Below, in pieces: positions 34,348-60,903 of a DNA stretch of 64,000 nt; within the stretch, counting starts at the first letter, position 1; the number at the start of each line of letters is the position of its first letter. A model generated the notes under the pieces. It searched no databases. It had not been told where the DNA came from and was given only the letters and a program-made list of their open reading frames with translations. The translations under genes and the position numbers were made by a program. Source of the DNA: Solirubrobacterales bacterium (GTDB lineage: Bacteria > Actinomycetota > Thermoleophilia > Solirubrobacterales > Solirubrobacteraceae); assembly GCA_947474595.1 (NCBI GenBank), contig CANJIV010000004.1, positions 62,001-126,000 of the forward strand, in the 5' to 3' direction.

Positions 34348-35262
34348 ATGACGGTCAACAAGATCACTCAACTCGAGCGCCTGCCGGAACTTGTACCGGA
34401 AGGTGCAGTGGTTGCATTTGGCGGCGGCTGGTTCGCTAACCACCCCATGGCTGCCGTGCGCGAACTCGTGCGCTCGCGACGCGATGACGTGCACGCTCTG
34501 GCGCTGCTTGGATCAATTGACGTCGACTTGATGGTCGGAGCGGGGCTTCTTAGCCATCTAACTTTCTCGATGGTCACGCTCGAGGCAATGGGCCTGGCTC
34601 AGAACTTTCGCCGGGCTGTACAGTCGGGCGCACTGCCTATAACCGAGATCCCCGCGCTCTCACTGCAGGTCGCCCTCGAAGCGGGCGCACAAGCTGTCCC
34701 TTTCTTGCCCCTGCGCGGTCCCCTTGGGTCGGACTTGGTAGCGAGTAACCCAGATTTCTTTGGCACGGCAACCACGAGCTTCAGCGATGACGAAGTCATG
34801 ATTGTTCGAGCAATCAGGCCAGACGTCGCAATTGTCCATGCCCTCCGCTGTGATCGCCTTGGCAATGCACAGTTTGATGGAACCTTTTCACAGGACCCAG
34901 AGATCTCGGCCGCGTCGGACACGGTAATTGTGACCTGCGAGGAAATCGTCGACAGCACGATTATTTCTGAGAGCGCCCACCTAACAAAGATTCCGGGATT
35001 CCTCGTCGATCATGTAATTGAGGCTCCATTTGGCGCCCACCCGTGCTCTCATGTACCACGGTATGCCCAGGATGCATGGGAGATCTTGGACTACCAAAAG
35101 GCAGCAATTGCCGGCGGCGAAGTTTTCGACGCATATGTAGACCGCATCCGCGAAGAGTCCGAGAGCGCTTACCGTGAGCGTGTGCTTGGTGGTGGCCGGG
35201 ATAAAGTTCTAGCCGCACTAGCTGAAGTCGGACCAACCCTTGAGGCTTCACAGAATGGCTGA
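34348..35262 (+). CDS. IpdA-like CoA-transferase family protein, alpha subunit (pair 1)
   Basis: A 304-residue class I CoA-transferase-fold protein. FLVDHVIEAPFGAHPCSH and VPFLPLRGPLGSD resemble mycobacterial IpdA (as I recall: MMVDAIVEAPGGAHF, LPFLPIRAGLGS), the cholesterol ring C/D enzyme that hydrolytically opens a cyclic diketone-CoA. It is thus probably a ring-opening hydrolase subunit rather than a transferase. No ribosome site; the ATG follows the operator by 3 bp. Overlaps the beta subunit by 8 bp. A paralogue is at 48335. Confidence 0.82.
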   Translation: MTVNKITQLERLPELVPEGAVVAFGGGWFANHPMAAVRELVRSRRDDVHALALLGSIDVDLMVGAGLLSHLTFSMVTLEAMGLAQNFRRAVQSGALPITEIPALSLQVALEAGAQAVPFLPLRGPLGSDLVASNPDFFGTATTSFSDDEVMIVRAIRPDVAIVHALRCDRLGNAQFDGTFSQDPEISAASDTVIVTCEEIVDSTIISESAHLTKIPGFLVDHVIEAPFGAHPCSHVPRYAQDAWEILDYQKAAIAGGEVFDAYVDRIREESESAYRERVLGGGRDKVLAALAEVGPTLEASQNG

Positions 35263-36121
35263 CCGCTACGAAGTCCACGAGCTGATGGTCTGCCGGATCG
35301 CCATGGAGATGACCGAGGAGGGCGACTACGTCACGATCCTCGGCTCATTCACACCACTTGCTTACTCCGCCTACATGCTCGCAAAACTTACTCATGCCCC
35401 TGACGCATGGTTGGTTGGGTACAACGCGATTGGCATGCCGCCCGTGGAGTTGAGCTTCACTGGCTCCGAAGCTGCCGCGTATCGCGGCTCATTAGCGCGC
35501 AACTCTTTCACTCCTAATGGGCACCTAGTACACCTCGGAACTCACGGGCTCCTTGAGTGCGTGTCATCGGCCCAGATGGATGGCGATGGGTCAATCAATC
35601 TCTCGGTGATCGGCGACTACGACAAGCCTAAGGTACGCCTACCGGGTGGTGCGGGCGCGCCGGAAGTTGTTCAAAACTATCGCAAGGTCGTGGCTTACTT
35701 CTCTAAGCACGACTCACGGACTCTGTGTGAGAAGGTCGACTTCGCGACAGGGCGCCGGACGCCAATCTCCCGCGATCGCCGCGATGCCGCTGACCTAGCA
35801 ACCGGTGGGCCAATTACTATCATCACGCCGCTGGCGGTTCTAACTAAAGATGACGACGATCGCCCATTTAAGATCGAATCGGTACACCCTGGAGTATCCG
35901 TCGACGAAGTCGTAGCCAACACAGGATTTGCACTTGATGTATCTACCGATGTGCCAACGACCGCAAAGCCGAGCGATGAGCAGGTCGCTCTCCTGAGAAA
36001 CAAGATAGACCCTTTCGGGACGGTCCGCTTCGACTTCTTATCGGGCGATGAACGCCTTACGTACCTAGAAGATGTTCTTGCCCAAGAGTGGGCGCGCGCC
36101 GAAGCTCATCTAGCCCTTTAG
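35255..36121 (+). CDS. IpdB-like CoA-transferase family protein, beta subunit (pair 1)
   Basis: A 288-residue partner of the preceding subunit. The part SVHPGVSVDEVVANTGF followed by PSDEQVALLRNKIDP matches the C-terminal half of IpdB (as I recall: SLHPGVTPGDVRDATSF, LHLIRAVIDP). The start at 35255 (MADRYEVHELMVCR) is set by comparison with the second copy (MSDYRIEELMVCR); the in-frame TTG at 35240 is rejected. Longer than mycobacterial IpdB (about 250). Confidence 0.82.
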   Translation: MADRYEVHELMVCRIAMEMTEEGDYVTILGSFTPLAYSAYMLAKLTHAPDAWLVGYNAIGMPPVELSFTGSEAAAYRGSLARNSFTPNGHLVHLGTHGLLECVSSAQMDGDGSINLSVIGDYDKPKVRLPGGAGAPEVVQNYRKVVAYFSKHDSRTLCEKVDFATGRRTPISRDRRDAADLATGGPITIITPLAVLTKDDDDRPFKIESVHPGVSVDEVVANTGFALDVSTDVPTTAKPSDEQVALLRNKIDPFGTVRFDFLSGDERLTYLEDVLAQEWARAEAHLAL

Positions 36122-40192: not shown

Positions 40193-41076
40193 ATGCCCCG
40201 CGAGGGCTCGATAACTTCTGCTGCGTAGCGCTCTAGCGCCGCTCGCCTCTCGTCGCTCGTCAGCCCTCCATACCGCTGAACATAGAGTCCAAAGGGATCT
40301 GCGTGTACAGAAGTTACGCCCATCTCCGCCATGCTTGCGATCTTGTCAGGCGTACGAATTCCGGCAGCCGAGGCCACATAGTCAAACGGCCTGCTGATGC
40401 CGTTCTCAGCTCGGATCGCTCCAATCGTCTCAAGATGCCTTGCCGTTTCGTGACGACTACTAAGCGGAGGAAGGATCCCATCGGCTAATAGGGCCGCACG
40501 GCGGATGGCTGGCTTGGCGTCTCCACCGACGTAGATTGGAATCGGCAGAGGCGGCGGCGGGCGCATCGTAACCTCGGGGAAGGAGATGAAGCGACCGTTA
40601 TGGCTGACGCTCTCCCCCGTCCACAGACTGCGTAGTACCTCGATCGCCTCATCGCTACGTGGCCCCCGTTCGTCGAAGTTGAAACCAAGGATCTCGAACT
40701 CCTCGCGAAGCCAGCCAGCCCCAACTCCTAGGATGAAGCGCCCCGGATGCAGTGCGGCAACTGTCGATGCCGCCTTTGCTACGAGCAGAGGATCGCGCAT
40801 CGGTAGGACAAAAATCCCCGTAAGCACAGTCAGGTTCGTCGTGCTGGCTAGTAGCGTCGCCGCCGCTACCATCGGGTCTAGCCACTCGCAAGACACATCC
40901 CAAGGAGCCCGGCCAGTATCTGGGTCCGGTTCGTAGGGGTAGCTCGTCTTCGAATTGTGTGGATGCACGACATGGTCAGGGATTGTGATCCCATGAAAGC
41001 CGAGGCTCTCTGCCTCACGTGCTACGGCAACGATCTGGTCGGCTGGAATATAGGTTCCATACAGATAAAACTTCAT
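40189..41076 (-). CDS. F420-type LLM oxidoreductase
   Basis: A 295-residue luciferase-like protein of the actinobacterial F420-dependent branch: GFHGITIPDHVVHP, LHPGRFILGVGAGW, PIPIYVGGDAKPAIRRAA. These motifs are common to probable F420-dependent oxidoreductases. It overlaps the acyl-CoA ligase stop by 4 bp and follows it in the same leftward unit. GGAGGA is six bases before the ATG. Confidence 0.84.
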   Translation of the reverse strand: MKFYLYGTYIPADQIVAVAREAESLGFHGITIPDHVVHPHNSKTSYPYEPDPDTGRAPWDVSCEWLDPMVAAATLLASTTNLTVLTGIFVLPMRDPLLVAKAASTVAALHPGRFILGVGAGWLREEFEILGFNFDERGPRSDEAIEVLRSLWTGESVSHNGRFISFPEVTMRPPPPLPIPIYVGGDAKPAIRRAALLADGILPPLSSRHETARHLETIGAIRAENGISRPFDYVASAAGIRTPDKIASMAEMGVTSVHADPFGLYVQRYGGLTSDERRAALERYAAEVIEPSRGI

Positions 41077-42500
41077 AGTGCATCCTCCTCGGCGAGAGCC
41101 TGCAGTTTCTGCAATGAAACCTTGCCCGAGCTGTCGACTGGTAGATCGGCGATGAAGATCACCGTCCGTGGCACCTTATAGATCGGCTGCTGATCTTTGA
41201 GCCAAGCTAGTAAGTCATCCCGACTAACCGCGGGTTGATTTCTAGGGACAACGAACGCGACCAACCGATTCGTCCACGTTGGATCTGGTACTGCGACGAC
41301 AGCCGCCTGCGCAACCCCTTCATGGGCGCGCAGCGCAGCGGCCACTTCGTCTGTCGATACGCGATTGCCTCCAACCTTGAGGATGCTTGACGCCCTACCT
41401 GTGATGTAAAGGTAGCCTTCCTCGTCGAGCCGTCCTAGGTCGCCGGTGCGATACCAATCACCAACCGGCTCCTGCCCTAAATAGCCAATAAAAAGATCTG
41501 GACCCGTAACTAAGACTTCCCCTTCGTCGCCGATGGCCACTTCCTCTTCGCTTTCGATCTCGGCGATCCGTACCTGCCGAAATGGAATCGTGCGGCCAAC
41601 CGTTCCGGGCCTAGCTGCAATCTCTTCAAATGTCGCTTCCGTGGGACGAGGGAGTTCAGTCATGCCATATGCGCAGTAGACACGACCCTCAAAGCGTTCG
41701 AGCAAGACCTCGGCAGTCTGCTCATCAAGTTTTTCTCCACCAGTCATCAACGCCCGTAAGCCTCGCCAGCCGGGGCCGTCGAGTCCGCCATGCTCCCGAG
41801 CCAGCCGCAGCATTGTTGGCACGAGATAGACGCTGGATATGTCGCGTTCAGAAAGAAAGTCGTCGACGCAATCGCGGGTAAACGGAGCGAAGACGACAGT
41901 TGCTCGCGCAAGCAGAGAGCCCATCACTAGAGAGTGAAATGGCGCCCCCGCGTAGGGTACGCAGAGCCAGTGTCGATCGCCTGGGCCGATAGGGAAACTT
42001 GCGAGGCGCAGGCACATAGCTGCGTGAAGGTCGGCGTGACGGGAGCGCAGGACAAGTTTCGGCATCCCAGTTGAACCAGATGTCAACAAGATAGAGCCTA
42101 CGCTTTGCGGCGAGACCTCCGTCAGCGCACTAGGGTCACCACCGATTAGATCCTGGTAGGAGATGCTCTCTACGCCTTCAACGGCTCGACCGATAATGGT
42201 CGTGACATTCGCTTGGCGCGTAACCTCGCGCAAGATTGGTTCTGGCTGCTTCGGATCGATTAGCATCGCCGCGCGACCGGCTGCCACCGCACCCAGAACC
42301 GCGACCGTATGGGCGATCGGGTCGGCCTCACTGACAGCAACGACGCCAGCACTTTCGCCTAGGACGCCAGCGGCGCAAAGCATGGCTTCGGCCAACTCTT
42401 TGATAGTTAGTCGATCTTCACCGTGCTCAAGCGCCACCCAGTCCGCCTGGGACGGGGCTGCTAGATATGAGATTAGTTCTGCCCAGTCCTGCGGAGCCAC
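41073..42500 (-). CDS. AMP-forming acyl-CoA ligase
   Basis: A 475-residue adenylate-forming enzyme, shorter than the ligase at 30528. ILLTSGSTGMPK (P-loop), YGMTE, YRTGDLGRLDEEGYLY and DSSGKVSLQKL with the catalytic lysine are present. GTG start. It lies divergent from the isomerase-mutase operon, 48 bp away, with the composite operator in between, and likely supplies an acyl-CoA to that operon. Confidence 0.88.
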   Translation of the reverse strand: MAPQDWAELISYLAAPSQADWVALEHGEDRLTIKELAEAMLCAAGVLGESAGVVAVSEADPIAHTVAVLGAVAAGRAAMLIDPKQPEPILREVTRQANVTTIIGRAVEGVESISYQDLIGGDPSALTEVSPQSVGSILLTSGSTGMPKLVLRSRHADLHAAMCLRLASFPIGPGDRHWLCVPYAGAPFHSLVMGSLLARATVVFAPFTRDCVDDFLSERDISSVYLVPTMLRLAREHGGLDGPGWRGLRALMTGGEKLDEQTAEVLLERFEGRVYCAYGMTELPRPTEATFEEIAARPGTVGRTIPFRQVRIAEIESEEEVAIGDEGEVLVTGPDLFIGYLGQEPVGDWYRTGDLGRLDEEGYLYITGRASSILKVGGNRVSTDEVAAALRAHEGVAQAAVVAVPDPTWTNRLVAFVVPRNQPAVSRDDLLAWLKDQQPIYKVPRTVIFIADLPVDSSGKVSLQKLQALAEEDAL

Positions 42501-42548: not shown

Positions 42549-43355
42549 ATGTCTTCTGAACCGACTTCGCCACTAGTCCCGCCAGAAGTGATCCTCGTCG
42601 ATCACCATGATGGCGTAGCCGTGATAACTCTCAATCGTCCCGATGCGCTCAACGCATTTAACCGATCCCTATTTGTGGCAGTACGCGAGGCGCTTAACTC
42701 TGCCGCCGCTGATCCGGACGTTCGATGCGTAGTCCTAACCGGCACGGGCCGGGCATTTACTGCAGGGTCAGACATATCTGACGACCCCGACTCAAAGCCA
42801 GACCCATCGGAGCAAGATCCGTATGACGCTTTCATCGAATGTGTTGAAGAGTTTCCTAAGCCATTAGTTGCAGCAGTCAATGGCCTGGCTATCGGGATTG
42901 GAACTACGATGCTTGGCCACTGCGAGCTGGTATTGGCAGGAGCGTCAGCACGATTCCGCATGCCATTTACCTCATTGGGCCTAGTCCCCGAGGCTGGCAG
43001 CACATCAACAATTCCCGCCCTGATGGGCCGCCAGCAAGCCGTGTACGCCTTGCTGACCTCGAGCTGGATCTCTGCGGAACAAGCCGCGGCCACCGGTCTC
43101 GTCTGGCGCCTGACATCCGACGAGGACCTCCTGACCGTGACGTTAGAAGCCTGCGCTGAGATAGCAGCACAGCCGCTTGAATCTCTCCTAAGCACAAAGC
43201 GACTCCTGCTCGAAGAACGCTTGCCGGCGGCCCGTGCTGCGCGAAATCGCGAAGAGCCTGAATTCCGTCGACTAACTAAGCGCCCTGCACACATCGAGGC
43301 ACTCGCCGCCTTCCGCGATCGCAGGCCGCCAGACTTTCGGAACCTTGCCGAGTGA
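42549..43355 (+). CDS. Enoyl-CoA isomerase-like crotonase
   Basis: A 268-residue crotonase-fold enzyme. At the two hydratase glutamate positions it has Thr (GIGTTMLG) and Phe (MPFTSLGL), so hydration is unlikely. MPFTSLGLVPEAGST matches the pattern of delta3-delta2 enoyl-CoA isomerases, with the possible catalytic Glu in PEAG. It would shift a double bond before further oxidation. First of four overlapping genes: its stop overlaps the mutase GTG start by 4 bp. Confidence 0.82.
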   Translation: MSSEPTSPLVPPEVILVDHHDGVAVITLNRPDALNAFNRSLFVAVREALNSAAADPDVRCVVLTGTGRAFTAGSDISDDPDSKPDPSEQDPYDAFIECVEEFPKPLVAAVNGLAIGIGTTMLGHCELVLAGASARFRMPFTSLGLVPEAGSTSTIPALMGRQQAVYALLTSSWISAEQAAATGLVWRLTSDEDLLTVTLEACAEIAAQPLESLLSTKRLLLEERLPAARAARNREEPEFRRLTKRPAHIEALAAFRDRRPPDFRNLAE

Positions 43356-44962
43356 AACAGGCGCGAGACAGTGCTCCAGCTGAGCGCGCCCTCTTCTACA
43401 CGCCGGAGTCAGTCGCAATTGACTACGAGAGGGACCTAGGAGACCCGGGCAGCTACCCCCATACTCGCGGCACGCGGCCACCAAACACGAGGCGCGAAAC
43501 AGAGGGCCACGATTTTCTTGTGCGCGAACTCTCCGGCGAGGGACCGCCGTCTCGCTCGAACGAACAGTTCCACTACCTGCTCGAACACGGGGCTACTGGG
43601 CTTGATGTTATTGGTGACACCCCAACCCAATGTTTCATGGATCCCGATCATCCCTACGCGCAGCACGCGGTGGGCAACCAAGGCGTATCGATTTGCCGTG
43701 GTTCTGATTTCGTTGCGCTCTATGAAGGGATCCCGCTTGACCGGGTCAGCTGTGACCACTCGCTGCCAGGCGGCTTCGCAGCAGCCGGTCTCTTCCTAGC
43801 AGCAGAGACCCACGGCCACCTCCCTGAGCTACTAAGGGGGTCCGCGATCCTGCCGCCACTTTTCGCCGAAGACACCGGCTACTCGTCGAATTTGCCTATT
43901 GAGCTTCACATGCGCCTAGCCACCGACTCAATTGAGTTTTGCTCGGAGCGGATGCCTAAGTTTCATGCGTTTGTCGAAGACACCTACTACATCTCTGACG
44001 GTAGCGTGGGCATCGTCGATGAGATGGCGCTCGGGTTCGTGGAACTCCGTGAGGTTGTGCGCCGCCTAGTTGCTCGCGGACTTGACGTAGATCTCTTCGC
44101 GCCACGCATTGCACTGCTAGTCAACTGCAGGATGGACTTCTTCGCAGAGATCGCAAAGATTCGGGCATCACGGCGAATCTACGCCAGAATGATGCGCGAC
44201 GAATTCGGAGCCAAAGACCCCCGCTCTCTAGCGATCAACGTGGCCGCCCATACGTCCGGGGCGACAATGACATCCCGCCAGATCGGCAACAACATCGCGC
44301 GAGGGGCGATCCAATCGGTCGCTTTGTATCTGGCCGGCGTTCGAGCAATGGAAATTTCCGCCTTTGATGAAGCGATTCGTACACCCTCGCGCGAAGCCCA
44401 CATCGTCGGGCTAGGGACCCAACACGTAGTCCAACTGGAGTCCGGCATAGCGGATGTTTCTGATCCGCTCGGAGGATCTTGGTATGTCGAGTCGCTAACC
44501 GATGAAATTGAAACCAAGATCACTGACCGCATCGCTGAGATCGAGGCGTTGGGCGACGTTGTTGAGCTCGCTGAGAACGGCTACTTTAGGGCCATCTTCA
44601 CAGAAGCTATGGTCGACCGTTCGCGCGAAGTGGTTGACGGCACGAGGCCAGTAGTTGGTGTCAACATCAACGAGATTCCGCCGGAACGCGACACACTCCT
44701 ACGCGACCTACTCGAGAACCGTATTGCGCCGTGCTATGACCGCATTGAAGAGATTGCGGCGTGGAGAGCCAGTCGTGACATGGGGCCAGTAGTTACCGCC
44801 CTAGATAACCTCGAAAGGCTCTGTCGTGATGGATCGAACATCATGCCGGGAATCGTCGAGGCGATGAGAAGCGAAGCCTCGATGGGCGAATCTATTGGCG
44901 TGCTGCGGGAATGCTACGGCCGCCCATATGACCCAATGGGGTGCGTGGAGCGGCCGCGATGA
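43352..44962 (+). CDS. Divergent B12-dependent acyl-CoA mutase, large subunit
   Basis: A 536-residue TIM-barrel subunit of the methylmalonyl-CoA mutase family, of the split type like IcmA or HcmA. By a by-eye, from-memory alignment with Propionibacterium MutB: Arg87 is kept (Arg58), but Tyr89 is Leu60, Arg207 is Gly176, His244 is Tyr213, Ser114 is Asp85 and Arg82 is His53. Loss of Arg207 argues against methylmalonyl-CoA. Known relatives use isobutyryl-, 2-hydroxyisobutyryl- or pivalyl-CoA; this active site matches none I recall. GTG start. Confidence 0.88.
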   Translation: MKQARDSAPAERALFYTPESVAIDYERDLGDPGSYPHTRGTRPPNTRRETEGHDFLVRELSGEGPPSRSNEQFHYLLEHGATGLDVIGDTPTQCFMDPDHPYAQHAVGNQGVSICRGSDFVALYEGIPLDRVSCDHSLPGGFAAAGLFLAAETHGHLPELLRGSAILPPLFAEDTGYSSNLPIELHMRLATDSIEFCSERMPKFHAFVEDTYYISDGSVGIVDEMALGFVELREVVRRLVARGLDVDLFAPRIALLVNCRMDFFAEIAKIRASRRIYARMMRDEFGAKDPRSLAINVAAHTSGATMTSRQIGNNIARGAIQSVALYLAGVRAMEISAFDEAIRTPSREAHIVGLGTQHVVQLESGIADVSDPLGGSWYVESLTDEIETKITDRIAEIEALGDVVELAENGYFRAIFTEAMVDRSREVVDGTRPVVGVNINEIPPERDTLLRDLLENRIAPCYDRIEEIAAWRASRDMGPVVTALDNLERLCRDGSNIMPGIVEAMRSEASMGESIGVLRECYGRPYDPMGCVERPR

Positions 44963-45375
44963 CGCCTACAACTCGGCTGCGAGTGCTCATTACCGTTCTT
45001 GGACTTGATCAACACGAGGCTGGCGCCTTGGCCGTCTCCCGCCTGCTGCGCGACGGCGGCGCAGAGGTAATCTACGCTGGCCGGTTCCAGCTCCCAGAAA
45101 CAATTGCGACGACCGCGATCGATGAAGACGTCGATGTCGTTGGTATCAGTGCGCACTCCTGGGAGGTGTTGCACTACGCCGAAGAGCTGGCACTTAGGCT
45201 CGGGCAGGCAGACCCTCCGATTCCGATTGTTGTCGGCGGTTCAGTAATCACGGCAGCTGACCAAGTTGAAATCCTAAGCAAAGGAATCGACGCAACCGTA
45301 TTACCGACTGCTCCTGAAGAGGAAATCATTGCCACCTTCTACCGCCTAGCCGAGGCCCGCCGCCCTAGGTTATGA
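44959..45375 (+). CDS. B12-binding small subunit of acyl-CoA mutase
   Basis: A 138-residue cobalamin-binding flavodoxin-like domain. The motif Asp17-x-His19-x2-Gly22 (LDQHEAG) provides the lower axial histidine, followed by VGISAHSW and IVVGGSV at the nucleotide tail pocket. It should pair with the preceding large subunit. The ATG at 44959 overlaps the large-subunit stop (ATGA) and is chosen over an in-frame GTG at 44941. Its own stop overlaps the next gene by 4 bp. Confidence 0.92.
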   Translation: MTPTTRLRVLITVLGLDQHEAGALAVSRLLRDGGAEVIYAGRFQLPETIATTAIDEDVDVVGISAHSWEVLHYAEELALRLGQADPPIPIVVGGSVITAADQVEILSKGIDATVLPTAPEEEIIATFYRLAEARRPRL

Positions 45376-45857
45376 ACACCACCTTGGCAACGAAACTGCA
45401 GGGATATTTCGACCATGCAGCTCACGCCGCCCCAAGGATCAGGGACCTGCTCCCGCTATATGCAGAACAGCTAGGCGGCCAGTTCTTATATGGCGGAGAG
45501 AACACCCGCGTTGGCTACAGGGGAGTGGTCCTGAGCTATGCAAACGGGGGAAAGGTTGAACTCCTAGAGCCACTACCTGGGTCGCACTTTCTCGACAGCT
45601 TCTTTGCCAACCATCCCTTCGGCGGGCTCCACCACCTGACCTTTCGGGTATTCGACATCCAAGCCTCAGTCGTGAGTGCGCAAGAGGCAGGATTCGAGAT
45701 TGTCGGCTTGAACTCAGACAACCTCGAATGGCAAGAGGCATTTGTACACCCGCGGTCAGGCCATGGCGTGCTGGTCCAGCTAGTGCAAGCTGCTGCTAAC
45801 TACCCACGCAACGAGCCCGGCGAGACATTGGAGACCGTCCTAGCCGGCGCAAGCTAG
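45372..45857 (+). CDS. Methylmalonyl-CoA epimerase-like VOC protein
   Basis: A 161-residue vicinal-oxygen-chelate protein. FDHAAHAAPRIRDLLPLYAEQ and VELLEPLPG resemble methylmalonyl-CoA epimerases, and GGLHHLTFRVFDI gives a metal-binding His. Coupling to the mutase genes by a 4-bp overlap implies that substrate or product of the mutase has a 2-position stereocentre that must be inverted. The exact acyl group is unknown. Last gene of the operon. Confidence 0.83.
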   Translation: MNTTLATKLQGYFDHAAHAAPRIRDLLPLYAEQLGGQFLYGGENTRVGYRGVVLSYANGGKVELLEPLPGSHFLDSFFANHPFGGLHHLTFRVFDIQASVVSAQEAGFEIVGLNSDNLEWQEAFVHPRSGHGVLVQLVQAAANYPRNEPGETLETVLAGAS

Positions 45858-45872: not shown

Positions 45873-47018
45873 CTAGAGCCCTAGTCCTCGACCGACGATT
45901 TCCCACATGATCTCTGTCGACCCACCGTAGATACGTTGCACTCGCGCATCGCGCCACTGCCGCGAAATCTCATACTCATTCATATATCCGTAACCGCCGT
46001 GAAGCTGGAGGCATCGGTCGACGACGCGCCACTGTAGCTCGGTCGTCAACGCCTTCAACCCAGCCGCTTCGACTGGATCGAGCTCTTCGGTGACCTCAGC
46101 CTCAATGCAGCGGTCAAGGTAGGCGCGCGCTGACCGCAGCTCCGTAGCCATCAAGGCTAACGCGTGGCGATTGACCTGAAATGTTCCAATTGGCTGGCCA
46201 AAAGCCTTCCGGTCTTTTACGTATTCAAGGGTTATCTCCAACGCAAACTCGGCGCCAGATATCGCAGCAAGGGCCACCGAAAGGCGTTCGCGGCCGAGGT
46301 TGTGCATGAGGTTGCGTAATCCCGCACCCTCTTCCCCGATCAGATTGGCTACGGGGACCCGGACGTCGCTAAAAAATAGCTCGGCCGTATCTTGATTACC
46401 GCGGCCGATCTTCGATAGCTTGCGCCCGCGCTCGAAGCCTTCCATGCCCGCCTCGACCATTAGCAAGCTGAAAGCCGCACTGGCCCTAGCATCGTCGGAC
46501 GTACGTGCGGCGACCACAACAAGGTCGGCCTGTGAGCCTGAGCTGATGAAGGTCTTCGATCCGTTTAGGACGTAGTGATCTCCGTCACGACGGGCCTCCG
46601 TCGCGATCCCCCGTAGATCTGATCCCGTTCCAGGCTCACTCATTGCGATCGCCGCGACAAGCTCCCCCGAAGTAAAGCCGGGCAACCAGCGCGCTTGTTG
46701 CTCAGCGTTGGCTAGTCCCGTGAGGTACGGACAGAGCACATCGTTCTGGAGCATGAAGTGATCGGGGATTAGTCCAAGTCGACATGTCTCTTCGATCAAG
46801 ACCGCATTGAAGCGATAGTCGGAGATCCCGAGACCGCCAAATTCTTCAGGAGCCTCGAAGCCCACAAAGCCTTGTGCGGCCGCTTTGCGCCAGAATGCCC
46901 TGTCGAGCATTCCGTCGCTCTCCCACTGGTCGTGGTTCTGGGCTGCCTCGCGCTTGAGGAATCCCCGGACGGATTGCCGGAAGTCATCGTGTTCTGCTGT
47001 GAAGATGTTTCGTTTCAT
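45873..47018 (-). CDS. Acyl-CoA dehydrogenase (long-chain-type active site)
   Basis: A 381-residue acyl-CoA dehydrogenase: AIAMSEPGTGSDLRGIAT, TFISSGSQADLVVV, QLHGGYGYMNEYEISR and RIYGGSTEIMWEI. Gly replaces the medium-chain-type Glu before the GS/GT pair, as in long-chain and isovaleryl enzymes. It should introduce a double bond into a CoA ester of the pathway. Composite operator copy 5 sits 6 bp before its ATG. Convergent with the mutase operon at a 15-bp gap. Confidence 0.9.
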   Translation of the reverse strand: MKRNIFTAEHDDFRQSVRGFLKREAAQNHDQWESDGMLDRAFWRKAAAQGFVGFEAPEEFGGLGISDYRFNAVLIEETCRLGLIPDHFMLQNDVLCPYLTGLANAEQQARWLPGFTSGELVAAIAMSEPGTGSDLRGIATEARRDGDHYVLNGSKTFISSGSQADLVVVAARTSDDARASAAFSLLMVEAGMEGFERGRKLSKIGRGNQDTAELFFSDVRVPVANLIGEEGAGLRNLMHNLGRERLSVALAAISGAEFALEITLEYVKDRKAFGQPIGTFQVNRHALALMATELRSARAYLDRCIEAEVTEELDPVEAAGLKALTTELQWRVVDRCLQLHGGYGYMNEYEISRQWRDARVQRIYGGSTEIMWEIVGRGLGL

Positions 47019-48334: not shown

Positions 48335-49234
48335 GTGAACAAGGTAATTGCTCTCGAAGAGCTCTCATCATTTGTCGCCCCCGGGGACTCCTTGGGCATC
48401 GGTGGCGCTTGGATGGCGAGCCACCCCATGGCGGCAGTACGGCAGCTGATGCGCGATGGTATCGGCGACCTTCATGTAATCGGATCGCTCAGCTCAATCG
48501 ACGTCGATCAGCTGATAGGCGCGGGACTTGTGCGCGAGTTGACCTTCTCCATGGTGTCTCTAGAGGCCTACGGACTTGCCCCGCATTTCCGCAAAGCAGT
48601 TCAAGACGGCACGCTGATAATTAATGAAATCAGTGGAGTGGCAATTAATGTGGGCCTCGACGCAGGTGCTCGTAATTTGCCTTACCTACCTATGCGCGAC
48701 ATCGGTGCCTCTCAGCTGCCAGAGGTAACACCAGATGCTTTTGCCGAAATTACCTGTCCTTTTACGGGTGAGCGCTTGCTAGCCATTAGGGCGATCGTGC
48801 CCGATGTAGCAATCATCCACGTACTTCGGGCTGACGCCGCGGGTAATTGCCAGGTAGAAGGGCCAATGGCTTGTGATCCCGAACTGGCTAGGGCCGCTGG
48901 TCGCGTTGTCGTAACGTGCGAGGAGATTGTCGAGACCGAGGTAATCGCGAGGAATCCAGCCACTACTCACATTCCTGGATTTCTTGTTGACGCGGTCATT
49001 GAAGCGCCTTTTGGAGCCCACCCAACTACCCATATCCCGCGTTACGGATTTGATGCCTGGGCGGTTATGGAGTACGCGGATGCCTGCGCCGATGGGCTCG
49101 CCGATACGCATATCGCCCAGCTGGCATCCGAATCTGAAGCCGCCTACCGAGAGCGCGTCCTGAGCGCCGACAAGCGGGCGGTCCTAACAACCATCGCCCG
49201 CAACCCAAAGACTCTAGAAACGCAGGGCACATGA
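48335..49234 (+). CDS. IpdA-like CoA-transferase family protein, alpha subunit (pair 2)
   Basis: A 299-residue paralogue of the protein at 34348: SHPMAAVRQLMRDG, LPYLPMRDIGASQ and FLVDAVIEAPFGAHPTTH match position by position. Like pair 1 it is closer to IpdA than to acetate or glutaconate CoA-transferases as I recall them. GTG start; no ribosome site, and the leader is short. The stop overlaps the beta subunit by 4 bp (ATGA). Two different pairs in one regulon suggest two ring-opening steps or two ring substrates. Confidence 0.82.
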   Translation: MNKVIALEELSSFVAPGDSLGIGGAWMASHPMAAVRQLMRDGIGDLHVIGSLSSIDVDQLIGAGLVRELTFSMVSLEAYGLAPHFRKAVQDGTLIINEISGVAINVGLDAGARNLPYLPMRDIGASQLPEVTPDAFAEITCPFTGERLLAIRAIVPDVAIIHVLRADAAGNCQVEGPMACDPELARAAGRVVVTCEEIVETEVIARNPATTHIPGFLVDAVIEAPFGAHPTTHIPRYGFDAWAVMEYADACADGLADTHIAQLASESEAAYRERVLSADKRAVLTTIARNPKTLETQGT

Positions 49235-50097
49235 GCGACTATCGGATCGAAGAGTTGATGGTCTGCCGGATCGCCTCCGAGGTAGACGACTCCGGGGTAA
49301 CCGTTCTCGGCTCCTTCACTCCGCTCGCCTATGCGGCCTACATGCTGGCCAAACTAACCCACGCACAAGATGCCTACTTGGTTGGCTTTAACGCCATCGG
49401 CATGCCAGCCGTCGAACTCAACCTTACTGGCGTAGAGGCAGCTATTTACAGCGGCGCTCTCGCTTACTGGAGCTTCGGCCCAACCACACAAACTGTTCAC
49501 TTGGGCAAGCGTGGACTTGTTGAATGCGTATCGCCCGCCCAGATTGACGGGTCTGGAGCGTTCAACCTAGCCTGTATCGGTGACTACAACAATCCCAAAG
49601 TGCGCATGCCAGGCGGTGCCGGATCGCCCGAAGTTATGCAGCATTACGAGCGAATTCTCGTTTACTTCGGCCGCCACGACAAACGCACACTTGTTGACAA
49701 GGTCGATTTTCGTACCGGGCAGCGCTACCCCCTCGAAGCTAGTGCTCGACTGGAGCGTGGCTTACTGGCCGGCGCAATCCGAGTCATCACACCGCTGGCC
49801 GTGCTAGTTAAGGATGATGATGCTAAGCCGTTTCGTATCGAGACCCTCAATCCTGGCGTCGACGTAACTGAGGTCATTGAGAACACAGGATTTGAGCTTG
49901 AGGTACCGACCAACATAGGTACCACCGCCGAACCAACTCCCGAGCAAATCAAACTTCTGCGAGATCGCATCGATCCCTACGCCACGATCAAGTTCGACTT
50001 TCTCGATGCCCAATCTCGCAAAGATATGTTGCGCGATCTCCTTCAGGGCGAATGGGATCGTGCGCTCGCCACCTCGCGTGAGAATGTTGGCGCGTGA
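49231..50097 (+). CDS. IpdB-like CoA-transferase family protein, beta subunit (pair 2)
   Basis: A 288-residue paralogue of the protein at 35255, with the shared starts ELMVCRIA and VLGSFTPLAYAAYMLAKLTHA and the IpdB-type end TLNPGVDVTEVIENTGFEL, QIKLLRDRIDPYA. A 19-base identical DNA stretch around the ELMVCRIA codons shows a relatively recent shared origin. Pairs with the preceding alpha subunit. An operator-like inverted repeat follows before the KstD-like gene. Confidence 0.82.
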   Translation: MSDYRIEELMVCRIASEVDDSGVTVLGSFTPLAYAAYMLAKLTHAQDAYLVGFNAIGMPAVELNLTGVEAAIYSGALAYWSFGPTTQTVHLGKRGLVECVSPAQIDGSGAFNLACIGDYNNPKVRMPGGAGSPEVMQHYERILVYFGRHDKRTLVDKVDFRTGQRYPLEASARLERGLLAGAIRVITPLAVLVKDDDAKPFRIETLNPGVDVTEVIENTGFELEVPTNIGTTAEPTPEQIKLLRDRIDPYATIKFDFLDAQSRKDMLRDLLQGEWDRALATSRENVGA

Positions 50098-50201: not shown

Positions 50202-51884
50202 ATGATTACCGTCAAGCCAGAACGATGGGATCGAGTTGTCGATGTAGTTGTGATGGGCAGCGGAGCTGCCGGCCTTAGCGCCGCCACCACAGCACACGAT
50301 GCCGGCGCCGATGTCCTTGTCCTTGAAAAGGCTTCCATGATCGGCGGCACAGCAGGCGTATCTGGTGGCATCATTTGGGCGCCCCTGAACCGCCATGCAG
50401 CGGCAGCTGGCATCCAAGACTCGCGCGAAGAAGCCCTGCTATATGTACGCCGCCTGACCCTCGGTCGCGAGCCCGACCCCGCGCTCGTGGAGGTATTTAT
50501 CGATAACGCCCATAAGGCGCTCGATTACTTAGAGGACAACACGCCTCTGGACCTAATGCTGTCGCTTGCCTTCACCGACTACTACGCAGATTTTCCTGGT
50601 GCCAAGAAGGAAGGTGGTCGCTCCCTTGAGCCTAAGCCTTTCAACGCCCGCGCAGAACTTGGCGAATGGGCCCCTAAGCTCAGAAAGAGTCCGCACCTAG
50701 CTCCCCTCACCATGGAGGAAGGCGCCCAGGTATTGCATGGCGGAGAACTGCCAGCTGACTTGGTAGAGCAGCGGGAGGCCGAAGATATCCGCGTGCTCGG
50801 ACCAGGCCTCGTTAGTGCACTCTTCAAGGGATTGCTCGACCGCAACGTCCCTGTCGAGACGGAGTCTCCCGTCGATGAGCTCGTAGTCGTCGATGGAGTA
50901 GTCATCGGAGTCCGCACTCGGGGCGAATCGCCCGAACTTATTGGCGCTAGGCGTGGTGTTGTACTTGCCTGCGGCGGCTTTGAGTGGAACGCAGCGATGG
51001 TCCGCTCGTTCATCGGCGAGCCTATTGTCCCGATGAGTCCGCCCCATAACGAGGGCGATGGTCATCGCATGGCCATGGAGGCTGGCGCTGAACTAGGCAA
51101 CATGACCTCCTATTGGGGGCAGCCTGCCATCTACGACCCAACTGTCGAATTCGAAGGCCGTCCGATGATCCAGATGGGTGGATCACGAGCATTTCCCGGA
51201 ATGATTATTGTTAACCACCATGGGAAACGCTTCGTTAATGAAGCGTCTAGCTACCAAGATTTCCCCAAGGTAGTCGACGCATTTGATCCGATTACCGCTG
51301 AGTATCCCAATGAAAAACACTGGCTCATCTTCGATGCCAGCGTGAAGAGCGCCGCAACAATTATTCCGTCGCTTCCTGGTAGCGCTCCCGCCCCCGACTG
51401 GATCAAGCGCGCGGACTCGATTCACGCTCTCGCTGATCAAGTCGGGATCGATCCGAAAGGACTAGAAGAGACTGTCAGGCTCTGGAATCAGGCCGTGGCC
51501 GACGGCGACGACCAAGACTTCCATCGCGGCACTCTTTGGTTCGAAGCATTCATGACTGGGGGGCCTGACAAGGGCACATGCCTAGCCCCAATCGTAACGG
51601 GACCCTTCTATGCCGTTCCTATGGTCCACGGTGCGCTCGGCACCAACGGCGGCTCGCGCATCGACGCCGACGGCAGAGTGTTGAGCATGCGTGGAGGAGT
51701 CATCGATGGCCTTTACGCAGCCGGCAACGCGTCGGCCAACGTGATGGGCTCGTCGTACCCAGGAGGCGGCGCTACCTTAGGGCCAGCGCTGACCTTCGGA
51801 TACCTCGCTGGGCGGCACGTGGGGGGCCGCAACTCACGCGACATCGGAGACGAGGCGGTCCTGAGTAATTCGTCCAGTGCATAG
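50202..51884 (+). CDS. KstD-like FAD-dependent dehydrogenase
   Basis: A 560-residue flavoprotein of the 3-ketosteroid delta-1-dehydrogenase/fumarate reductase family: FAD loop VVMGSGAAGLSAA, EKASMIGGTAGVSGG, Tyr in GPFYAVPM, and SSYPGGGATLGPALTFGYLAG-like C-terminal motif, which is more KstD-like than the 25181 paralogue. It probably desaturates a cyclic ketone, a step that in steroid catabolism leads to an aromatic ring for the extradiol enzyme encoded next. GAGGGA ribosome site. Confidence 0.85.
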   Translation: MITVKPERWDRVVDVVVMGSGAAGLSAATTAHDAGADVLVLEKASMIGGTAGVSGGIIWAPLNRHAAAAGIQDSREEALLYVRRLTLGREPDPALVEVFIDNAHKALDYLEDNTPLDLMLSLAFTDYYADFPGAKKEGGRSLEPKPFNARAELGEWAPKLRKSPHLAPLTMEEGAQVLHGGELPADLVEQREAEDIRVLGPGLVSALFKGLLDRNVPVETESPVDELVVVDGVVIGVRTRGESPELIGARRGVVLACGGFEWNAAMVRSFIGEPIVPMSPPHNEGDGHRMAMEAGAELGNMTSYWGQPAIYDPTVEFEGRPMIQMGGSRAFPGMIIVNHHGKRFVNEASSYQDFPKVVDAFDPITAEYPNEKHWLIFDASVKSAATIIPSLPGSAPAPDWIKRADSIHALADQVGIDPKGLEETVRLWNQAVADGDDQDFHRGTLWFEAFMTGGPDKGTCLAPIVTGPFYAVPMVHGALGTNGGSRIDADGRVLSMRGGVIDGLYAAGNASANVMGSSYPGGGATLGPALTFGYLAGRHVGGRNSRDIGDEAVLSNSSSA

Positions 51885-52132
51885 GCGCGTGATTGCACGC
51901 TGGCCTCAGGCGAGATCGGCTCGTCACAGTCCACGACAATTGTGTCGGCCTCTTGATCCCAATCAACCACTAACCAATATGGTCGCTAGCGGCGTACGCC
52001 TAGAACTGCACACTTCCAGAGAGTTATGGAGATCCACCTTGGCCCGTATTCCAGTGGCACCAACTCAAGCAGCCAGAGTATTTCCCAACGGTCGCGCTTG
52101 CGCGTGCCAATTGAGAGCTAGGTGAGGCATCA
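51885..52132. other. Intergenic region, possible gene relic
   Basis: No convincing gene in 248 bp. On the minus strand, from about 51970, the translation starts MVDWDQEADTIVVD, which recalls the N terminus of KstD-type flavoproteins but then loses the family. It may be the remains of an old paralogue or chance. Confidence 0.3.
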
Positions 52133-53080
52133 GTGATCTTACGACTTGCCCATGTCGAGATTACCGTCGACGATCTCGCCCAAGCTCGAGCTTTTTACAT
52201 AGATATCCTCGGCTTCGTCGAGCACTGCGGCGACGACTCTACGTGCTATCTGAGGGCCGCGGATGAGTTCGATGCGTGGTCTCTTAAGATAACTTCTGGC
52301 GCTGGGGGCGGCCTCGTTCACTCCGGTTTCCGGGTCTCTGATCCAGCCGACCTAGACAGTCTCCAAGCGATTCATGACTCCCTAGGCCTTGCTACCAAAC
52401 GTATTCCCAGCGGCGTCGAGCCCGGCCAAGGAGAAGCGTTACGGGTGCTCACCGCAGAGGGCCACCGAGTGGAATTTTTTCACGATTTCGATGAGATTGA
52501 CCTTTATCCCGGAGGGCGGCTCCGTCTTCCACCTAGAGGCGGCAGTGGCATCCGTGGCGTACCCCCCAGTCGCATTGACCACGTCAGCATGCGAGTTCCA
52601 GATGTACCGGCGGCCCTCATCTACTGGACAGAGCAGCTTGAATTTAGCGCTGCTGAAATATGGCTAGAGGATGACAATGTGACGCCGAAGGTGGCATGGG
52701 TCCGACGGGCACCGTTTTCTCACGATGTCGCATTAGGAAAACATCCCGAAGCCGTCTTTCATCATTTTGCATATGCAGTCAACGATGGGACTGCGCTGCT
52801 GAGAGCAGCCGATCTGCTCGGTGACGCCGGGCTGCAAGGGTCAATCGAGTGGGGGCCCAGTCGCCACGGAGCCACCAATGCATTGGCGATGTACGTTCAC
52901 GACCCTGCCGGCAACCGACTTGAGCTCTACACCGGTGACTATCAGCGCGACCTCGACCGTCCAACACTGCGCTGGCGTGCAGTTGACTACGAAAGCCAAG
53001 GGCATTCGTGGTGGGGCAACGGCCCACCCGAGACTTTCGGCCAGACCCAACCGCTAGTAGGAGACTGGCTGGTCAAGTGA
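52133..53080 (+). CDS. Type I extradiol ring-cleavage dioxygenase
   Basis: A 315-residue two-domain VOC dioxygenase similar to HsaC and BphC. The iron ligands are visible: His150 (IDHVSM), His210 or 211 (VFHHFAYAV) and Glu264 (NRLELYTGD), with His245 and Tyr267 as active-site partners. It opens a catechol-type ring next to the diol (meta cleavage). GTG start with GAGG upstream. Its stop overlaps the hydrolase start by 4 bp, so product transfer to the hydrolase is implied. Confidence 0.92.
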   Translation: MILRLAHVEITVDDLAQARAFYIDILGFVEHCGDDSTCYLRAADEFDAWSLKITSGAGGGLVHSGFRVSDPADLDSLQAIHDSLGLATKRIPSGVEPGQGEALRVLTAEGHRVEFFHDFDEIDLYPGGRLRLPPRGGSGIRGVPPSRIDHVSMRVPDVPAALIYWTEQLEFSAAEIWLEDDNVTPKVAWVRRAPFSHDVALGKHPEAVFHHFAYAVNDGTALLRAADLLGDAGLQGSIEWGPSRHGATNALAMYVHDPAGNRLELYTGDYQRDLDRPTLRWRAVDYESQGHSWWGNGPPETFGQTQPLVGDWLVK

Positions 53081-53949
53081 GTCGGTCAGCGCCTTCTATC
53101 TGGCCGGAGCTAGTCGATCTGTCCTTCTCCCAGCGGTTTGTGGATGCGGGTGGCGTGCGAACGCGGGTTGTCGAGGCTGGAGATGGCCCACCTCTGATCC
53201 TGCTGCACGGCACCGGAGGTCACTTAGAGGCCTACCTTCGTAATTTGCGGTACTTGAGTCAGTACTTTCGTGTCATCGCCTACGACATGATCGGCCATGG
53301 CTTCAGCGATAAGCCCGACCGTCCTTACACGATCGATTCCTACTGCGACCATCTGTCTGACTTAATGGACGCCCTAGAAATTGATCGAGCCCACCTGTCG
53401 GGCGAGTCACTCGGCGGCTGGGTTGCCGCCTGGTTTGCCAAGGAGCAGAGCGCGCGCGTGGACCGGCTCGTACTGACAACGCCTGGCAACGTACTCAGCA
53501 AGCCACAGACGATGTTGCGTATCAAAGAAAGCACAATGAAAGCTGTCAGCGAGGCTTCGCCGGAGACCGTCCGGAGTCGCCTTGAGTGGCTGTTTGCGCC
53601 CGCCACCAAGCACATGGTTTCTGACGAATTAGTCTCGATACGCCTAGCTATATATACGCTCCCGGGAGCCGAGCAGGCGATGCGCAACGTCTTGGTACTG
53701 CAAGACCCCGAGACTCGCACTAAATATGCTTGGGATTCAGAGTGGACTAGCCGTATCACTGCTCCAACGCTGATCATCTGGACCTCTGACGATCCGACTG
53801 GGGACTATGAAGAGGGCCAACTTCTACAGAAGTGGATCCCCGGCTCGCTGCTCACCAACATCGAAGAGGCAGGCCACTGGCCTCAGTGGGAACGCCCCGA
53901 GGAGTTCCACCGTCTACATGTAGAGTTCTTGGCGACCGCAAAGTGCTAA
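53077..53949 (+). CDS. Meta-cleavage product C-C hydrolase (HsaD/BphD-like)
   Basis: A 290-residue alpha/beta hydrolase. Nucleophile Ser111 in SGESLGG, acid in WTSDDPTGDY, His in EAGHWPQWE, oxyanion segment LLHGTGGHLEAY. It cleaves the dienol ring-fission product into a 2-hydroxydienoate and an acid. The start is the GTG at 53077 that overlaps the dioxygenase stop (GTGA); longer starts inside that gene are rejected. The next gene overlaps its end by 7 bp. Confidence 0.9.
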   Translation: MSRSAPSIWPELVDLSFSQRFVDAGGVRTRVVEAGDGPPLILLHGTGGHLEAYLRNLRYLSQYFRVIAYDMIGHGFSDKPDRPYTIDSYCDHLSDLMDALEIDRAHLSGESLGGWVAAWFAKEQSARVDRLVLTTPGNVLSKPQTMLRIKESTMKAVSEASPETVRSRLEWLFAPATKHMVSDELVSIRLAIYTLPGAEQAMRNVLVLQDPETRTKYAWDSEWTSRITAPTLIIWTSDDPTGDYEEGQLLQKWIPGSLLTNIEEAGHWPQWERPEEFHRLHVEFLATAKC

Positions 53950-54566
53950 CCCTGTTTGACAATCCCGACTCATCAAACGCGCTGAAAGTGCGGTTTCTTT
54001 TGGCTGAGCTTGGGCTTGAATACAAGCGGGAAACTATTCCATTGGCTTACCCGCGTCCTGATGCATACATGGCAATCAATCCGCTCGGTGGCATCCCCAC
54101 TCTTGAAGATGACGGCTACGTCCTCGCCGAATCACAGACGATTCTTCGTTACTTGGCGACCCGCGAGGGAAGTGAAGACCTTTACCCGACAGACCCCCAA
54201 GAACGTGGCCGCATCGATGAGTTTCTCGACCGGTTCGCCACCCGCCTACGACCTCCGTTCTTTCGCCGTGAGGCTGTAATGCTTGGGTGGTCTCTTGAGC
54301 GCGGTTTTTCCCCCGATGATTGCGACCCGGAGAAGGCGCCAGCGATCGAGCTAGAGATCGCGGCCAACACAGCGTTATTAGACAAACTCGTAGGTGAGGG
54401 CGGCTGTGTTCTCGGCCGCTTCACGATCGCAGACTGCGCGCTGGCTCCGGTTCTCCACCGTGCCCAACTCACTGGCTACGCTCTTGATAAATATCCAAGA
54501 TTGCAAGCTCTCACAGACCAGATTCTGTCGCGACCAGCATGGGCCGCCGCCGAGCCAGGGTGCTAG
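53943..54566 (+). CDS. Glutathione S-transferase-like protein (BphK-like context)
   Basis: A 207-residue GST-fold protein: thioredoxin-like part with [17 protein letters not shown] and [20 protein letters not shown] (the cis-Pro and Glu-Ser G-site), then an all-helical part with TIADCALAP. In proteobacterial biphenyl operons BphK GST sits in the same place. Most actinomycetes lack glutathione, so its thiol partner is unclear. GTG start at 53943, overlapping the hydrolase by 7 bp; convergent 4-bp overlap with the aldolase gene. Confidence 0.85.
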
Positions 54567-55573
54567 CTCTGATCGACTAGCGAAAGCGCGACGTCGATGA
54601 TCATGTCTTCTTGGCCGCCAACATAGCCTCGACGACCAACCTCGAGCAGGATCTCATGGGCTGAGACACCGTAGCGCTCGGCTGCACGCTCAGCATGGAT
54701 CAGGAAGCTCGAATACGCACCAGCGTAGCCAAGGATGATCGAGCTGCGATCCATCGTTGGAATGCGCGTTATAAAGGGCGCTACGACCTCTTCGGCCGCG
54801 GCCAAGATTTGGAGCAGGTCGATGCCAGTTTGGATACCCAGGCGATCGAATACAGCCGCTAGAACTTCCGTCGGCGAATTGCCTGCCCCGGCACCCAACG
54901 CTCGCGTAGAACCATCAATCTGACGGGCCCCAGCTCGGTAGGCGAGCACTGAATTAGCGACGCCCATCGCGAGGTTATTGTGACCGTGGTATCCAACCTC
55001 AGCGCTACCGCCAACCTCAGCCACGAGTGCCTCTACACGCTCTATCGCATCGTCGAGGATTAGTGCCCCGGCCGAGTCGACAACATAGGGACACTGGCAG
55101 CCAGCGTCCACCATGATGCGGGCCTGCTTAGCAAGCACCTCAGGTGAAGCCATGTGGCTGAGCATGAGGAAGCCGACCGTCTCAAGGCCCATCTCGCGGG
55201 CTGCGCCAAAGTGTTCAATTGAAACGTCCGCCTCGGTGCAGTGGGTAGCGACCCGAACTATCTGGGCCCCGGCCGCCTCTGCCCGCTTCATGTCCTCAAC
55301 GGTACCTACTCCCGGGACAAGTAAGACAGCTATGCGGGCCTGTCGCGCCTCATCCGCCGCAGCGGCAATCAACGTAAGTTCATCTGTGGCGGAAAAGCCA
55401 TAATTAAAAGTCGACCCACCAATTCCATCGCCATGGGCAACTTCGATAACTGGCACCCCTGCATCATCGAGCGCTCGCACAGTGTCGCGCACCTGCCGCT
55501 CGGTGAATTGGTGCGACATAGCGTGACTTCCATCGCGCAAAGTAGTGTCAGTGATTCGGACGTCTGGTGTCAT
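54563..55573 (-). CDS. 4-hydroxy-2-oxovalerate aldolase
   Basis: A 336-residue class II pyruvate aldolase of the HsaF/MhpE/DmpG type: [16 protein letters not shown] at the N terminus, and [14 protein letters not shown] with the metal histidines near 200. It splits 4-hydroxy-2-oxo acids to pyruvate and an aldehyde, channelled to the dehydrogenase encoded next to it. The two genes overlap by 4 bp. Last gene of the leftward meta-cleavage operon. Confidence 0.95.
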
Positions 55574-56478
55574 TTTTCCCCCTGCAGTCTCGCCGCGGCG
55601 AACCGCTCAGCTACAGCGCAAGCGGCTGCCGTCATGATGTCAAGATTGCCAGCGTGGCGGGGGAGAAAATCTCCTGCCCCTTCAACGCTGAGAAGCACGG
55701 TTACGCGGCCACGACCACCCCAATCTGGCCGCGGATCGTCGAATTGAGGCTCCGCCACCATGCGGTAGCCAGGAACGTACTGCGCCACCCTTTCTACTTG
55801 GTCGTAGATCGATGCGGAGATCGCAGCATGATCTGCGTCTGGTTCGATAGCGGCCATTACGGTGTTACGCATCGTGATTGGTGGGTCAGCTGGATTAATC
55901 ACGATAATTGCCCGTCCTCGCACTGCTCCACCGACCTCTTCAACTCCCCGTGCGGTCGTCTGTGTGAACTCATCTATGTTCGCGCGAGTTCCAGGACCAG
56001 CTGAATCAGAGGATACCGACGCGACAATCTCCCCATATGACACGGGCGTGACGCGGCTAATCGCCGCGACAATTGGAATGGTCGCCTGCCCACCACACGA
56101 GATCAAGCTAACGTTTGGCGTGTCGAGGTGATCGTCGATATTGACCACCGGCACAACCGGGGGGCCTAGTGCGGCTGGCGTGAGATCGATCGCTTGGATA
56201 CCAGCCTCCCGATATCGCGGAGCGTTGGCGTGGTGCGCATACGCTGATGTAGCTTCAAAAACGATCTGCGGCAGCTCTGCTTGAGATAACAGCCAGTCCA
56301 CCCCATCCGAGCTTGTCTCAATACCCAACTCGCGTGCCCTCATGAGCCCGGTCGAGGCTGGATCCACACCTACCATCCAACGTAGATCCAGATCTTTACT
56401 GCGCATAAGCTTAAGTGCCAGATCTGTGCCGATATTGCCGGATCCGACGATTGCGACAGGAATAGTTGTCTCAGGCAT
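55570..56478 (-). CDS. Acetaldehyde dehydrogenase (acylating)
   Basis: A 302-residue CoA-acylating aldehyde dehydrogenase of the HsaG/MhpF/DmpF type: [20 protein letters not shown] fold and the catalytic Cys in [11 protein letters not shown]. It converts acetaldehyde or propionaldehyde to the acyl-CoA and forms a channelling complex with the aldolase. ATG start 12 bp after the preceding crotonase stop, and a 4-bp overlap with the aldolase gene. Confidence 0.95.
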
Positions 56479-56490
56479 TATTTTCCTTAC

Positions 56491-57285
56491 CTAACTACCG
56501 TTGAACTCTGGCTCACGCTTCTCTTGGAAAGCAGCAAGCGCCTCCTCAAAATCTCGTGTGCGAGTTGACAGTATCTGTGTTCTGTTCTCTAATTCAATGG
56601 CTGCTCGCAGCGACGGTGCGTCAACATTTGTGGCGAGAACCTGCTTTGTCATACGGACTGCAAATGGAGAGTTGCGGGCTATCTCAGCTGCCAGATCTAT
56701 CGCGGCCTCAACGAGCCCATCGGCAGGCACTACCCGGTTAACCAGACCGCGTCGCTCGCCTTCCTCGGCGCCGATGAAACGTCCGGTCATCATCAGCTCG
56801 GAGGCCAAGCCAAGCCCGACCACACGAGGCAGCCAGTACGAAGACCCTAGATCGCAGCCGGAGAACCCAATACGCACGTTAGCCATATTAAAACGTGCTT
56901 CCGGGGCCGCGAGCCTCATATCTGAGGCCAGAGAGAAGACCAGGCCTGCGCCCGACGCAGCGCCGTTGACTGCGGCGATGATCGGTTGTGGAACCTCCGC
57001 CAAGTGGGCACACATCCGTCCAAAGTTTTCCTGTAAATCATAGGCGTGAACCGTGTTTGTTTGGTCGAGAGAGTTGGGGTCCTTGATGTCAAGGCCAGCA
57101 CAGAATGCCCTGCCAGCGCCAGTGAGTACAACCGCGCGCACCTCGTTGTGCTTACCGAGCCACCGGAAGCACTCTTCGAGCTCTTCAACCATCTGCCAGT
57201 TGACTGCATTGAGGCGCTCAGGCCGATCGAGTGTGAGTATTTTCACGCCTGGACCAGCATCCTCGAAACGGATCGTCGTGGACAC
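56491..57285 (-). CDS. Crotonase-family protein without hydratase glutamates
   Basis: A 264-residue crotonase-fold enzyme. SGAGLVFSLASD and NMANVRIGFSGCDLGSSY lack both hydratase glutamates; the second segment resembles mycobacterial EchA proteins of steroid side-chain loci as I recall them. Isomerase, hydrolase or lyase action on a CoA ester is likely. I place the start at GTG 57285 with TTGGAG ten bases upstream; TTG at 57300 is the alternative. Middle gene of the meta-cleavage operon. Confidence 0.8.
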   Translation of the reverse strand: MSTTIRFEDAGPGVKILTLDRPERLNAVNWQMVEELEECFRWLGKHNEVRAVVLTGAGRAFCAGLDIKDPNSLDQTNTVHAYDLQENFGRMCAHLAEVPQPIIAAVNGAASGAGLVFSLASDMRLAAPEARFNMANVRIGFSGCDLGSSYWLPRVVGLGLASELMMTGRFIGAEEGERRGLVNRVVPADGLVEAAIDLAAEIARNSPFAVRMTKQVLATNVDAPSLRAAIELENRTQILSTRTRDFEEALAAFQEKREPEFNGS

Positions 57286-57302
57286 GCTTGTTAACTCCAA
57301 TT

Positions 57303-60880: not shown

Positions 60881-60903
60881 AGAGATTGGTCTACGGTATC
60901 CGG

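Follow-up and report, generated by a model that had tools for sequence, protein, structure and literature searches.

The window, by which we mean the whole stretch of 64,000 nucleotides that was analysed, carries a gene pair (43352-44962 and 44959-45375, forward strand) whose best explanation is a carbon-skeleton mutase that depends on AdoCbl and represents a new subfamily, deeply split from the others. Its sequence fits no MCM, ICM or HCM signature and falls far short of the equivalog models, PCM and ECM references lying outside the comparison. Since nearly all of the usual substrate-binding residues are replaced, this rare, well-conserved branch of B12 mutases probably rearranges a substrate so far without assignment, perhaps a ring-shaped acid under breakdown. 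Each acyl-CoA mutase specificity known so far has given access to a catabolic or industrial route and is set apart from MCM by no more than a few residues. In the clade described here, about 16 gap-free active-site positions are changed together, and the changes are fixed in several phyla; one of them concerns a histidine that is regarded as important for the chemistry of acyl radicals. Provided that it is active, the clade enzyme would show which parts of the MCM mechanism are indispensable, and it could fill a gap in the degradation of acids that are ring-shaped or alpha-blocked.

The open reading frame at 43352-44962 (GTG start, 536 aa) was assigned as a divergent acyl-CoA mutase large (substrate-binding, TIM-barrel) subunit using PF01642 (E-value 2.2e-113; 380 bits, cut-off 22), TIGR00641 (336.9 bits, above the curated cut-off of 303.8), an AF2 model and its position in a clade with 100/100 support. 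The PF01642 match places the protein in the acyl-CoA mutase superfamily by sequence, and the AF2 model (pLDDT 79; first 61 residues unreliable) has the TIM-barrel fold of that superfamily, with Z scores of 37-38 against human MCM and HCM over ~465 aligned residues. Because TIGR00641, a general domain model, was the only curated NCBIfam model passed, public genomes would probably file the clade enzyme as a generic methylmalonyl-CoA mutase. The adjoining gene at 44959-45375 (+) encodes the small B12-binding subunit (TIGR00640, 67.7 bits, cut-off 57.5; PF02310, 5.6e-19) with the motifs GLDQHEAG (DxHxxG) and SAHSWEV. All 27 small subunits carry the partner B12 domain with DxHxxG, and mostly have SCHSWEY where canonical ones have S-LSGxH; here and below, counts of 27 comprise the window sequence and 26 relatives. 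The original prediction of a split-mutase large subunit was thus borne out by the reading frame, the PF01642 match and the adjoining B12 subunit. Because the CoA-phosphate residues (R87, R283, K/R234) and DxHxxG are kept, the pair is predicted with high confidence to be a working AdoCbl mutase acting on a CoA thioester.

Active-site residues carry the numbers of P. shermanii MutB, which were mapped by motif to the MutB sequence of M. tuberculosis. They were compared using a multiple alignment of the large subunit with human MUT, M. tuberculosis MutB, HcmA and relatives, and a profile-profile alignment in which the clade was matched to canonical mutases (E-value 3e-115). The four replacements originally read by eye, Y89L, S114D, R207G and H244Y, were all present in the multiple alignment, and positions 89, 114 and 244 were confirmed gap-free by the profile-profile alignment. 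Near 195-207 the latter contains one insertion and one deletion, and the register at 207 moves by one residue: Arg207 lies opposite Gly176 in the multiple alignment and opposite the invariant Tyr177 in the profile-profile alignment, so that the loss of Arg stands in both while its replacement by Gly depends on the alignment. Across the clade the residue opposite Arg207 is Gly/Ser/Thr/Cys in one register and the invariant Tyr177 in the other, with Arg in neither, and Gln197 lies opposite Ile/Leu or, one residue on, opposite Gln/Leu/His. One outcome that would have refuted the original reading, a profile alignment with the canonical Arg207 and His244 at other positions, did not occur. The active site, already described as unfamiliar, differs far beyond the four positions named at the outset, with about 16 near-fixed, gap-free changes in the clade (Y89L, S114D, A116I, F117G, N236H, I240E, S241D, G242T, H244Y/F, S285A, F287L, H328T/A/S, Q330H, S362A, H364E, and N366S). 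These replacements occur in 25-27 of the 27 sequences, at positions near-invariant in 23 canonical sequences; position 244 is Tyr or Phe in 27/27 clade members versus His in 23/23 canonical sequences, and Gln330 is replaced by His in 27/27. Kept are R87 (23/27), R283 (26/27), K or R at 234 (26/27), Y243 (27/27), and E370 (27/27).

In MCM, Arg207 and Tyr89 bind the substrate carboxylate, and His244, which is important in catalysis, binds the substrate carbonyl; His244 is conserved in the described mutase subfamilies, though neither the Pfam nor the TIGR model demands it. The human residues Tyr110, His265, and Arg228 (offset 21) are described as substrate contacts (PMC11988910). With Arg207 and Tyr89 gone, the acyl group of the substrate should not be a methylmalonyl-type dicarboxylate. 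Since Tyr or Phe stands at 244 throughout the clade, the protein was classed as a homolog of the superfamily and assigned to none of its described subfamilies.

When 84,980 species genomes were scanned, 26 relatives from several phyla were found at 48-66% identity, after which identity drops to 38%. As the same replacements recur in these 26 homologs, they are more than chance, and a single odd gene or sequencing oddity was ruled out. In the phylogenetic tree the 26 full-length members, including the window sequence and omitting one fragment, formed one group (support 100/100) whose stem measures 1.62 changes per site and whose deepest branch is a Chloroflexota sequence (L026). This clade lay outside every other clade of the tree, which lacked verified PCM or ECM reference sequences; grouping within a characterized mutase clade, the other outcome that would have refuted the original reading, thus did not occur. 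It did not group with HcmA, which paired with L031 on the canonical side; the long stem of the clade and the long branch of HcmA meet there, which makes the point of attachment uncertain but leaves the clade intact as a single group. Five pairs of clade genes gave dN/dS values of 0.02-0.09, i.e., strong purifying selection. Using a clade profile the window gene scored 832 bits, among 199 genomes sampled from its class no other exceeded 468, and no other genome among 296 of its phylum reached the clade threshold. The clade gene was found in 1/299 genomes of the Novosphingobium family, 2/400 from the phylum of L006, and 5/15 in the order of L016, a rare and patchy distribution that suggests horizontal transfer. 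Among the plasmid matches listed there were canonical relatives at ~36% identity or less and none at 60%, and the searchable papers, which leave most subscription journals outside, yielded nothing on such a mutase clade.

Membership of the described families was rejected on their signatures. The large subunit has Leu at 89 and Gly or Tyr at 207 where MCM has Tyr89 and Arg207, and scored 271 bits against the cut-off of 876 of the MCM equivalog PRK09426. With MutB and human MUT it shares the fold (Z ~38), the AdoCbl motif, Tyr243, Glu370, and Arg283, whereas Tyr89, His244, Phe117, and Gln330 are replaced and Arg207 is absent. The IcmA type and IcmF have the same fold, likewise no Arg207, and an expected monocarboxylic substrate, but the multiple alignment shows neither their Phe89/Gln207 pair nor His244 in the window enzyme, and the IcmF model gave 142 bits (cut-off 1500). 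The HCM pair Ile90/Asp117 (HcmA numbering) is absent as originally stated, Leu standing at 89 and Ile at the HcmA Asp117 position.

The mutase genes belong to a set of four spanning 42549-45857 (crotonase, mutase large subunit, B12 subunit, VOC protein), and the 4-bp overlaps claimed to join them are real (GTGA 43352-43355, ATGA 44959-44962, ATGA 45372-45375), the second fixing the start of the B12 subunit at ATG 44959. The crotonase-superfamily gene (42549-43355, +; PF00378, 3.4e-45) is isomerase-like: in the alignment both hydratase glutamates are absent and a VPE motif is present, and its best NCBIfam models were under cut-off (PRK06023, 174/282 bits; PaaG, 171/345). The VOC protein (45372-45857, +) is related to methylmalonyl-CoA epimerase, its best PDB match being that enzyme (1jc4, 5e-10); at 64 bits against a cut-off of 115 it falls outside the TIGR03081 equivalog. 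A divergent AMP-forming acyl-CoA ligase gene (41073-42500, -; PF00501, 3.8e-41) and a convergent acyl-CoA dehydrogenase gene (45873-47018, -; PF00441, 8.2e-45) flank the operon and may act in the same pathway.

Large and small subunit genes were adjacent in 30/30 loci examined, and the neighbors in other genomes were beta-oxidation genes. An orthologous FabG/BadH-like SDR lay directly upstream in seven loci (L005, L006, L007, L008, L011, L012, and L015), crotonases were near the mutase in eight, and acyl-CoA ligases and dehydrogenases also recurred. Epimerase-like VOC genes occurred in the window, L020, L022, and L029, directly upstream of the mutase in the latter three, and a MeaB-type chaperone gene, identified by sequence reading, stood beside the mutase in L025, L027, and L030. 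In L008 (Chloroflexota) one strand carries a BadH-like SDR (324 bits, cut-off 431), a crotonase, a cyclohexanecarboxylate-CoA ligase-like gene (552/792), a second ligase, an AliB-like dehydrogenase (410/575), a BadI-like hydrolase (375/468), two SDRs, mutL, and mutS. Thus the ligase, dehydrogenase, SDR, and hydrolase homologs of the cyclohexanecarboxylate (bad/ali) pathway are next to the mutase in what looks like a near-complete ring-opening set, but all bad/ali matches fall under curated cut-offs. This also holds for the MenB/BadI-like crotonase that precedes the mutase in L026 (248/380 and 233/468). To our knowledge the bad/ali pathway has no B12 mutase. Other neighbors differ among genomes and include HyuA/HyuB, a luciferase-like oxidoreductase, and indolepyruvate oxidoreductase, and L077 has no pathway gene. 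In L013, the closest relative, a 1171-aa indolepyruvate:ferredoxin oxidoreductase-family gene (2488-6003) lies directly upstream and HyuA/HyuB follow.

Beside the operon in the window lies a meta-cleavage cluster (50202-58109) with genes for a KstD/4-oxocyclohexanecarboxylate dehydrogenase-like flavoprotein, an HpaD-like extradiol dioxygenase, an HsaD-like hydrolase, a FAA hydrolase-family protein (hydratase-like by position), acetaldehyde dehydrogenase, and a DmpG-type aldolase; the window thus holds KstD/ChcC1-like, HpaD/HsaD-like, and HsaEFG-like genes. Paralogous glutaconate-CoA-transferase/IpdAB-type subunit pairs flank the operon on either side (34348-36121 and 48335-50097), and none of the NCBIfam models matched these four proteins at 1e-10. 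By gene clustering, none of the other clade loci has a member of the CoA-transferase or flavoprotein families; the mutase is therefore not tied to them, and a steroid-specific role was rejected. The earlier proposal of a ring-derived substrate was partly supported, namely by the acyl-CoA catabolic neighbors, the adjoining meta-cleavage set and the one relative in a cyclohexanecarboxylate-type operon.

By sequence, the enzyme retains its fold, the His-on B12 motif, Tyr243, Glu370, and the residues for the CoA phosphate, but has a replaced acyl pocket. The pocket no longer has the Arg/Tyr that bind a carboxylate or the His that binds the carbonyl, and it has gained Asp114, His236, Asp241, His330, Glu364, and Tyr/Phe244. 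Near the corrin it is roomier (Phe117 to Gly, Tyr89 to Leu), and some gains fill space (Ala116 to Ile); a crude side-chain volume balance, a sum of residue volumes and not a docked model, gave ~70-175 cubic angstroms freed. From these losses, gains and extra room we infer, as the best explanation and still tentatively, an AdoCbl mutase for a bulkier, non-dicarboxylic acyl-CoA, most likely of an alicyclic or alpha-blocked acid. The hypothesis of a bulky or alicyclic acyl group draws on the volume balance and on two gene contexts, the alicyclic link being hypothesized from L008 and L026. The more specific proposal of an alicyclic acyl-CoA radical rearrangement, moving the thioester around, off or into the ring without the histidine of the canonical mutases examined, is conceivable and on the doubtful side. 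Homolysis of AdoCbl would yield an adenosyl radical, this would abstract H from the carbon in beta position to the thioester, and the same carbon would then receive the migrating CO-SCoA group. With the thioester moved off the blocked carbon, neighboring enzymes could carry out dehydrogenation, hydration, and ring opening, and the epimerase-like VOC protein may correct the alpha stereocenter.

A plain hydrocarbon substrate does not account for the acid residues inside the barrel, and these new acids and histidines keep two alternatives alive. A hydroxyacyl-CoA mutase resembling HCM, its hydroxyl-binding Asp displaced from the Asp117 site of HcmA to Asp114, two residues down the same strand, with Leu for Ile at 89 and a larger 3-hydroxyacyl-CoA supplied by the neighboring crotonase and SDR, is rather unlikely. 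HcmA/HcmB is the top-scoring solved relative (4r3u, 265 bits), also has split subunits, an aliphatic residue at 89 (Leu89 resembling HCM Ile90) and no Arg207, the inward Asp lies in the same strand, and the gene found most often directly upstream encodes a FabG-like SDR. Identity to HcmA is, however, only ~30%, HCM and its relative L031 keep His244, Gln197, and Gln330, and HcmA also Asp117, where the clade has Tyr/Phe, Ile/Leu (or shifted Gln/Leu/His), His, and Ile, and the tree places HcmA and L031 together on the canonical side. Use of AdoCbl for another radical reaction, such as loss or migration of a hydroxyl with new Asp/Glu/His residues activating the leaving group by analogy with diol dehydratase, would agree with the (near-)invariant Asp114, His236, Glu240, Asp241, His330, and Glu364 and the missing catalytic His244, but sequence and fold are nearest to acyl-CoA mutases and the CoA-phosphate residues are kept, which makes it distinctly improbable.

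A substrate that is not a CoA thioester is very unlikely. The N-terminal CoA-binding stretch (Tyr75, Thr77, Met78, Arg82) and tunnel serines are replaced, with Met78 lost in nearly all members and Ser285, Ser362, and His328 changed, but Arg87, Arg283, and K/R234 remain and the neighbors are CoA-pathway genes; this alternative is weakened further because the basal L026 keeps Met78 and Arg82 and because positions 362 and 364 also vary in L003, a mutase on the canonical side. A decayed or non-catalytic subunit, suggested by the many classical active-site residues lost, is scarcely credible and was ruled out by dN/dS, the new residues being conserved clade-wide and an intact B12 subunit always adjoining.

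The genome assembly of the window (2.1 Mb, 14 contigs) encodes three further mutases, of which in the multiple alignment one has the ICM pair Phe89/Gln207 (L001) and two have Tyr89/Arg207 (L002 and L003). L003 (contig C10:35691-37133) is on the MCM side, where it forms a very long branch; it has Tyr89/Arg207/His244 but also T85M, F92H, Q361R, S362A, and H364Q, and is possibly an ethylmalonyl-CoA mutase. Elsewhere in the window, 60886-61938 encodes a histone-deacetylase-family amidohydrolase (PF00850, 6.6e-91).
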